From NCBI GenBank assembly GCA_022772475.1, contig JALEZQ010000064.1, positions 33,419 through 97,418 on the forward strand: a DNA stretch of 64,000 nucleotides. The letters run 5' to 3'. Made by a program: the position numbers and the translations under genes. The stretch is from Bacteroidales bacterium. Lineage in GTDB: Bacteria; Bacteroidota; Bacteroidia; Bacteroidales; Bacteroidaceae. Below, piece after piece: positions 9,835 through 44,437 of the stretch. The number at the start of each line of letters is the position of its first letter. Position 1 is the first letter of the stretch. The notes below the pieces were generated by a model that worked only from the letters and a program-made list of their open reading frames with translations, had not been told where the DNA came from and ran no database searches.

Positions 9835-10229
9835 TTGCACACACGGGCAAAAACGTGAATTTTGCCGCCCAAAACGTGAACGCCCGCCGCCGCGCAAATA
9901 GAAGCGGAAAGGTGCGGCGGAGGGCGAAAATCGCACAGTGGCCGCAGAGTTTGGGCGACAGAAATTCCTGTAAGCGTTACAGAAATTTCTGTCGCCCATA
10001 CAGTGAACGCCGAAACGCATACCCTGAGGCGGCGCGGCGGGGGCTATTTTCGGGTGTTTTCTAAAGAAAATTCAGAGTATTTAACTAACATACTACACAT
10101 AGAGCAAGAATATACCATATTCTGTCAAACACAAGCGCGCCATGCTTGCGATATTTTCGGCCGCGGGGCGGCCGGTGGATTTCGCGGGCCTTCTCGAGGT
10201 TAACAAATGTGAAAGGCGCGATTGCACAC
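9835..10229 (+). repeat. ~395-bp intergenic repeat, copy 1
   Basis: It begins and ends with TTGCACAC (9835-9842 and 10222-10229). Shared landmarks with the other copies are ACGTGAATTTTG and CAAATAGAAGCG near the left end, a central palindromic block (GGGCGAC at 9953-9959 with GTCGCCC at 9991-9997, and CTGTAAGCGTTACAG between), and a right end with CGGTGGATTT, TTCTCGA and TTAAC. It has no convincing gene; small open frames inside it look spurious. Confidence 0.85.
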
Positions 10230-25363: not shown

Positions 25364-25759
25364 TTGCACACTATGTCAACAACGTGAATTTTGCGTCCGA
25401 AAACGTGAACAGCGTCAGTCCTCCAAATAGAAGCGAAAAAGCGGGGCGCGGTACTGAAAACGCATTCCGACGCCACACTTTGGGCGAGAGAAAATCCTGT
25501 TTGGGCGAGAGAAAATCCTGACGCCCAAACAGTGATGCCCGTTCCGCCCTCCTCTTCAGCGTACTGAAGAGGGCGTGTTTCGGGTAAAACATGCGGAAAT
25601 TTTAGAGAATTTAACCGACAACAAGCATTTCTCCCAAATTCTCGCAATATACTATCAAACTCTATCGCGCCATACTTGCGTTATTTCCGCCTGCCGTCCG
25701 GCCGGTGGATTTGGCGGGCATTCTCGACGTTAACGTATGTGAAATACACGATTGCACAC
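25364..25759 (+). repeat. ~395-bp intergenic repeat, copy 2
   Basis: Bounded by TTGCACAC at 25364-25371 and 25752-25759, 396 bases. It carries the same landmarks as copy 1 (ACGTGAATTTTG, CAAATAGAAGCG, CCGGCCGGTGGATTT, TTCTCGACGTTAAC, CGATTGCACAC). Its central block differs: TTTGGGCGAGAGAAAATCC occurs twice in tandem (near 25480 and 25500) instead of the CTGTAAGCGTTACAG palindrome. The 25095-25363 stretch before it holds only a short GCACAC/GTGTGC hairpin near 25262-25284. Confidence 0.85.
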
Positions 25760-25819
25760 TGCCGCGGCGCTGACCGCGGCAGTGTGACATTCGGGCGTCA
25801 ACCCGGACTATGCTTTGTT

Positions 25820-25879
25820 CCGCCCGGGCTAACTCCGTCCGGGCTAATTCCGTCCGGGCTAATTCCGCCCGGGCTACAC
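25820..25879. repeat. 15-bp tandem repeat, four units
   Basis: Four 15-base units of CCGYCCGGGCTAAYT type run from 25820 to 25879, the last one ending TACAC. Each contains a CCGGG core. They sit between repeat copy 2 and the 3' end of the PepSY gene; a small stem ACCTTA/TAAGGT overlaps the end. Confidence 0.75.
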
Positions 25880-44042: not shown

Positions 44043-44437
44043 GTGTGCAATGACGCCTTTTACATTTGTTAACCTCGAGAATGCCCGCGAAATCCACCGC
44101 CTGCCCCGCGCTTGAAAATAGCGCAAGTATGGCGCCTTTGGTTTTGACAGTATGCGATATATTCTTGGGACACATGCCACGCTTTAGTTAAATCCTCTGA
44201 ATTTTCTATAGAAAACGCCCGAAAAGCGCCCTCATTCGTCCGCGGCAGGGTATGCGTTTCGGCGGTCACTGTAAGCGTTACAGGATTTTCTGTAACGCTT
44301 ACAGGAAAATCTGTCGCCCTTACAGTGGGAAGGCCATGCGTTTTCCGTCCTCCGCGCCGCCATGCCGCTTCTCTTTGCGCGGCCGGCGGCGTTAACGTTT
44401 TTGGCGGGAAAATTCACGTTATTGGCAGGGTGTGCAA
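44043..44437 (-). repeat. ~395-bp intergenic repeat, copy 3
   Basis: Read leftward it is bounded by TTGCACAC at both ends (GTGTGCAA at 44043-44050 and 44430-44437 in the given strand). Shared landmarks are CGGTGGATTT, TTCTCGAGGTTAAC, ACGTGAATTTT and a central palindromic block CACTGTAAGGGCGACAG...CTGTAACGCTTACAGTG. Like the other copies it is 395-396 bases long. Open frames inside it are judged spurious. Confidence 0.85.

Follow-up and report, generated by a model that had tools for sequence, protein, structure and literature searches.

Bacteria commonly carry small interspersed repeats, which are poorly explained and have mostly been read as dead MITEs. Short recombination boxes together with an accessory protein array, in an arrangement sensitive to helical phase, make up the accessory-site recombination modules of the cer/res/Xer type. 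The pneumococcal BOX elements (boxA-boxBn-boxC), with RUP and SPRITE, are modular intergenic repeats present in many copies, with a tandem internal unit, and have been judged parasitic in origin; BOX measures 67–637 bp and shows terminal inverted repeats, target duplications and a predicted RNA structure (PMC3049150). Among the Bacteroidales, Porphyromonas gingivalis has the intergenic families BrickBuilt, MITE464 and MITE239, with ~20 copies per family, of which BrickBuilt contains 23-bp internal tandem repeats in variable number, terminal inverted repeats matching IS5-family ISPg elements, and some target duplications (PMC4596501). The staphylococcal STAR elements are described as an interspersed intergenic direct-repeat family that differs between related species (PMC3532100). 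The repeat studied here, found in three copies (R1, R2 and R3) in a window of 64 kb, which is the whole stretch of DNA analyzed, is best read as a previously uncharacterized variant of this bacterial interspersed-repeat (BOX/MITE-like) class, and not as a true MITE.

The window belongs to the host genome G000, a MAG of 2.38 Mb in 104 contigs that is 86.8% complete and represents an uncultured gut bacterium; judged from one protein, the closest named relatives are gut Bacteroidaceae/Prevotellaceae MAGs. It was compared with the genome of a sister species, G052. All three copies lie exactly where the original prediction had placed them (Table 1), with TTGCACAC intact at both ends and in direct orientation, and their mutual likeness in whole-genome BLAST is far beyond chance (R1/R3 78%, E = 1e-91; R2/R3 68%, E = 1.7e-31). 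The last ~60 bases had been singled out as strongly alike, which is correct, yet the central array (~116–172) and the left AACGTGA words are equally strong. It had also been proposed to look for more genome copies and for presence or absence among close relatives, and both were found: G000 holds ~57 copies, spread over the whole genome in a BLAST search with R3, and the family is present, in the same orientation, at four of 17 comparable G052 sites and not at the others. A content-free pattern, TTGCACAC-N365-395-TTGCACAC, matched 50 copies in G000 (split 27 to 23 between the two strands) and 4 in G052, while its reversed control gave 0 in both. Beyond these 50 exact matches, G000 copies were recovered with one changed end base (L009, L017 and C38:3102), with a length of 375 bp (C81:1056) or truncated by contig ends (three). 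Apart from the 4 copies in the sister species, no element was present in 56 other genomes of the genus; the remaining matches of the end pattern across 399 family genomes were at control level, and the element was not found elsewhere in the family (~450 genomes). Phage records, plasmid records and viral contigs gave no match or chance matches, those in viral contigs not fitting the element profile, and a junction search revealed no copies nested inside other repeats.

Table 1. Positions of the repeat copies and their parts in the window, and loci of the second array-bearing family
Feature	Position	Strand	Remarks
R1, element copy, 395 bp	9835..10229	+	left gene stop 9831; next gene start 10332
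R1 left terminal box TTGCACAC	9835..9842	+	
R1 AACGTGA words	9852..9879	+	two, 21 bp apart
R1 central array, 21-bp units	9950..10005	+	TTTGGGCGACAG-N6-CTGT AAGCGTTACAG-N6-CTGT CGCCCATACAGTG
R1 right terminal box TTGCACAC	10222..10229	+	direct orientation
R2, element copy, 396 bp	25364..25759	+	counterpart region in G052 C80 holds a second-family element
R2 left terminal box TTGCACAC	25364..25371	+	
R2 central array	25479..25533	+	
R2 right terminal box TTGCACAC	25752..25759	+	
R3, element copy, 395 bp	44043..44437	-	counterpart G052 region without element, one isolated GTTTGGGCGAC
R3 left terminal box TTGCACAC	44430..44437	-	
R3 central array	44267..44323	-	AAGCGTTACAG-AAAATC-CTGTAACGCTT palindrome
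R3 right terminal box TTGCACAC	44043..44050	-	
Second-family loci, G052	C5, C9, C13, C22, C27, C34, C38, C44, C53, C58, C73, C80		
Second-family loci, G000	L297, L304, L343, L351		

According to an alignment of 36 copies, the element opens with the left box (1–8). Next come the two AACGTGA words, set 21 bp apart, then CAAATAGAAGC and the central array, after which a TTTAACTAA word, CTGTCAAAA and GCGCCATGCTTGCGTTATTTCCG lead up to a ~58-bp right end (GGTGGATTTCGCGGGCATTCTCGAGGTTAACAAATGTGAA...) that finishes with the right box. Units of 21 bp, CTGT-N7-ACAG, make up the array, with AAAATC-like spacers between them; for N7, TTGGGCG or AAGCGTT is usual, each in either orientation. In the majority of copies the two final units make a perfect palindrome, either TTTGGGCGACAG-N6-CTGTCGCCCAAA or a AAGCGTTA version; the spacer inside these palindromes is conserved, and the bases just within the left box are variable. 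Fifty-one of the 52 full-length G000 copies measure 395–398 bp (395 bp, 8 copies; 396, 31; 397, 11; 398, 1), the last one being of 409 bp, and those of G052 measure 395, 395, 396 and 407 bp. Mean identity among G000 copies is 64%, and conservation reaches 95% or more at 64 columns of the alignment, whereas uniform decay would leave 0 such columns. The box-to-box spacing falls into classes of ~367, ~388 and ~400 bp, roughly one or two helical turns apart; the boxes may have to lie in helical phase, or these classes could reflect descent. End tags and length vary by no more than one or two bases while the stretches separating the conserved blocks drift widely, a combination that points to a mechanical requirement (protein assembly and DNA phase) and not to coding or RNA folding. 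Some copies are mosaic: within L022/L270 and L023, one pair has an identical left 113 bp and differs in the rest, and L031 and L032 have the right part and right flank in common, with a different left 46 bp.

The copies are intergenic, none of 52 overlapping a gene called by a home-made, codon-usage gene caller. Flanking genes are found in mixed orientations (-+ 15, ++ 10, -- 10, +- 6), and the distance is as short as 3–20 bp to gene ends (minimum 3) and never less than 107 bp to gene starts. The copies show no replication-strand polarity and no preferred neighbor genes, and their spacing along the genome is irregular. In the window the neighbors are ordinary (uridine kinase family, pyruvate:ferredoxin oxidoreductase, a PepSY membrane protein and others), and the statement that no transposase is near was borne out by a Pfam scan of 26 proteins of the window, among which there was neither a transposase nor an integrase. 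Other repeats were seen in the vicinity of some copies. Directly to the right of R2 (window positions 25806–25875) there is a short tandem repeat of ~16 bp (CCGGGCTAATTCCGTC), not seen at the matching G052 region; beside the copy at L264 (G000:C92, 4514–4635) an inverted pair, CATTGTGTGCAAGC ... GCTTGCACACAATG, ~100 bp apart and containing a TTGCACAC word, is perhaps another small element; and a short repeat, AGTAGTGCCATGTCCATTGACGTGGCACTCAG..., turns up repeatedly close to array elements, in many cases by a contig end (L031, L032, L304 and L182 flanks).

For the sister species, 1.57 Mb of G052 sequence was compared, with one genome per species, and 17 G000 sites had both flanks on a single G052 contig. 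The slots of R2 and of C47:1419 hold an intact element of a second family (see below), that of C99:19604 an apparent decayed one, and at least eight of the 17 have no recognizable array element. There is one clean single-box junction: where G000 has C13:79016–79410 (box-379 bp-box), G052 reads CCAAGCATTGCACACGGTGTAAAAAATCC, with one TTGCACAC and 94% identity over 408 bp. Because a 12-bp direct repeat, TTGCACACGGTG, lies at this site, slippage deletion in G052 explains the junction as well as insertion in G000 does, and the single box could be its product and not an unoccupied target. L263/L187 is the one clear same-insertion pair across the two species, 89% alike (flank identity 99% on the left, 88% on the right), and its 44 substitutions are located in columns that also vary among the other copies (p = 4e-5), which argues for constraint acting after insertion, in one pair and in a region part of which was apparently exchanged recently between the species. 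At the other shared sites the elements are only ~50–57% alike and the near flanks also fail to align. A clean replacement at three shared G052 sites was considered and rejected, since the adjoining 50–200 bp are unalignable and the position differs at one of them; exact site identity is not claimed. Along the syntenic flanks, identity between the genomes switches between ~85–88% and 97–99% over short distances, with one switch inside the L263/L187 element, suggesting recent recombination between the two species.

The array is not restricted to the 395-bp element. Its palindrome, written as TTGGGCGAC-N10-GTCGCCCAA, was located 48 times in G000, 40 times in G052 and never in the rest of the genus or family sample (~450 other family genomes searched); many of these occurrences lie in another intergenic repeat. 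One subfamily of this second family is bounded on either side by direct boxes, GAGTTTTCTATC, and its copies measure either 312–314 bp (nine) or 324–325 bp (six), with nothing between; clear direct boxes were not seen in the other subfamilies. Its box-to-box spacings, 301 and 313 bp, like those of the TTGCACAC family, differ by steps of about one or two helical turns. The second family carries a putative Bacteroidetes-type promoter (TTTG-N20-TATCTTTG) reading into a terminator-like hairpin (GGGCCC...GGGCCCTTTTTT), and it occupies two, perhaps three, G052 slots where G000 has the first family. That two families follow one plan, with boxes of their own but an array in common, hints more strongly than anything else that one protein may read both. 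We also put forward, as a speculation that is rather doubtful, that these two sister gut Bacteroidaceae might possess a superfamily of phased nucleoprotein elements, with family-specific direct boxes (TTGCACAC; GAGTTTTCTATC), fixed stepwise spacing and a shared 21-bp operator array, whose families would be interchangeable in intergenic slots and form a lineage-specific, exchangeable chromosome-organizing or mobile-cassette system with a master protein.

A structured noncoding RNA or riboregulator present in many genomic copies would be in keeping with single-sequence folds that beat shuffles in stability (R1, z = -5.4) and with a hairpin-like segment following the array. However, consensus folding, mutual information, sliding-window folding and arm swapping detected no compensatory base-pair changes beyond the DNA-symmetric array palindrome: the covariation term in alignment folding is a penalty, with no bonus, on both strands; mutual information is dominated by array modules swapped locally; exchanging arms between copies alters stability for the array palindrome (p = 0.005) but for no further arm pair among those tested (p ≥ 0.48); and in window-wise folding only the center (~122–176) gives a signal. 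With no match in an Rfam scan of the window either, an RNA is very improbable, and since the tests of RNA structure are negative except at the palindrome, the element looks like DNA read by proteins. The folding signal being central only, the subterminal hairpins at both ends of an IS200/IS605-derived element (REP/PATE) are also missing. What the repeat does share with a classical MITE derived by truncation of an IS/DDE transposon is that it is short, noncoding by the gene calls, multicopy and without transposase (~57 copies of 375–409 bp), and TTGCACAC as the target duplication would agree with a direct 8-bp repeat at both ends and with one matching single-copy site. Nevertheless, the 8 bases are identical throughout 50 copies and also in the sister species while the interior has diverged by ~36%, and because duplications differ between insertions and decay, TTGCACAC does not look like a target duplication; invariant from copy to copy, it behaves like a component of the element. 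By inspection, terminal inverted repeats are absent, the ends being direct TTGCACAC boxes and the inner ends having no inverted repeat, and outside the boxes none of 52 copies has a suffix–prefix match reaching 3 bp, hence no target-site duplication. The classical MITE is therefore largely refuted, and we give it hardly any credence.

Site-specific integration of a small circle at pre-existing TTGCACAC sites, as in an integrase-type cassette, would suit the direct identical boxes, the single-box empty site, the variable bases just inside the left box and the conserved spacer of the array palindromes. Such sites are unlikely targets judging from the count of solo boxes: the ~57 intergenic copies exceed the ~11 intergenic 8-mers expected by chance, and 508 kb contain only ~8 intergenic boxes that are not part of a complete element (two of these being cut-off copies), which is too low a density; no linked integrase was found, and the cassette is improbable. 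A host-maintained element, though still on the unlikely side, is a possible explanation. The copies, scattered over the chromosome, would be bound by a lineage-specific nucleoid, segregation or global regulatory protein recognizing TTTGGGCGACAG/AAGCGTTACAG arrays and would be kept in place by selection, with losses and replacements making up the species differences. It is favored by the confinement of the L263/L187 substitutions to variable columns, by the length retained despite ~36% divergence, by the second-family array elements, two of them intact and one decayed, that hold three of the 13 G052 slots lacking the first family, and by the lone GTTTGGGCGAC in the G052 slot of R3. The lack of orientation or replication bias and of favored neighbor genes, the irregular spacing, and the eight or more of 17 G052 slots without a recognizable array element all speak against it, and one would expect to meet a host function in a wider set of species than these two. 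The "repeated structural or regulatory element" of the original prediction is still alive, because of the conserved length, the central palindromic array and the constraint within a resident copy, and its "non-autonomous mobile element" remains reasonable in view of copy number and presence/absence, a classical MITE being unsupported; the two ideas are compatible, not exclusive.

We propose, with about even confidence for and against, that the repeat is a non-autonomous, modular, noncoding interspersed unit that spreads, or once spread, as a whole and works as a protein-binding DNA platform. The number of copies, their scatter between genes and their presence/absence in relatives speak for past mobility, and the invariant end boxes, invariant length and central array suggest that it must be assembled by proteins, whether to move or be removed or to serve the host. 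In the mechanism we envisage, proteins would bind the two direct terminal TTGCACAC boxes and, at the center, the array of palindromic 21-bp units, each two turns long; the near-constant ~388 bp between the boxes would give a constant rotational angle, allowing the ends to be brought together over the center by looping; and a recombinase or transposase supplied in trans may move or remove the unit, the joining of box to box leaving one box, as at the single site in G052. Neither a mobilizing enzyme nor an autonomous copy was found: searches with the end patterns in the 86.8%-complete MAG gave no lone left or right end marking a larger autonomous element and no gene-bearing larger copy, all matches being full, slightly altered or contig-end copies. 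Recent activity is argued against by the fact that most copies sit on long branches.

Since two families in two species share one operator array, the responsible protein can be searched for by comparative genomics. The findings suggest small mobile or chromosome-organizing DNA units working by protein binding. We found no description of the element in an open-access library, and one may exist outside it. The likeness to the cer/res/Xer modules is an analogy of working only, neither a recombinase nor a defined core site having been found here. STAR elements are likewise interspersed, intergenic and different between related species, but by their description they are a direct-repeat family and not a fixed-length unit with terminal boxes. 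With the BrickBuilt group our repeat has in common the order Bacteroidales, the intergenic position and the multiple copies, whereas the ISPg-matching inverted ends, the variable repeat number and the target duplications of BrickBuilt are all inapplicable to it. Compared with BOX, it differs in its fixed length and direct-box ends, and no RNA covariation or target duplication was found; like small mobile sequences of the BOX/RUP kind, however, it is multicopy, intergenic, lineage-restricted and present or absent between relatives, and it shares with BOX itself the modular build, the tandem internal unit and a distribution limited to one or two close species.
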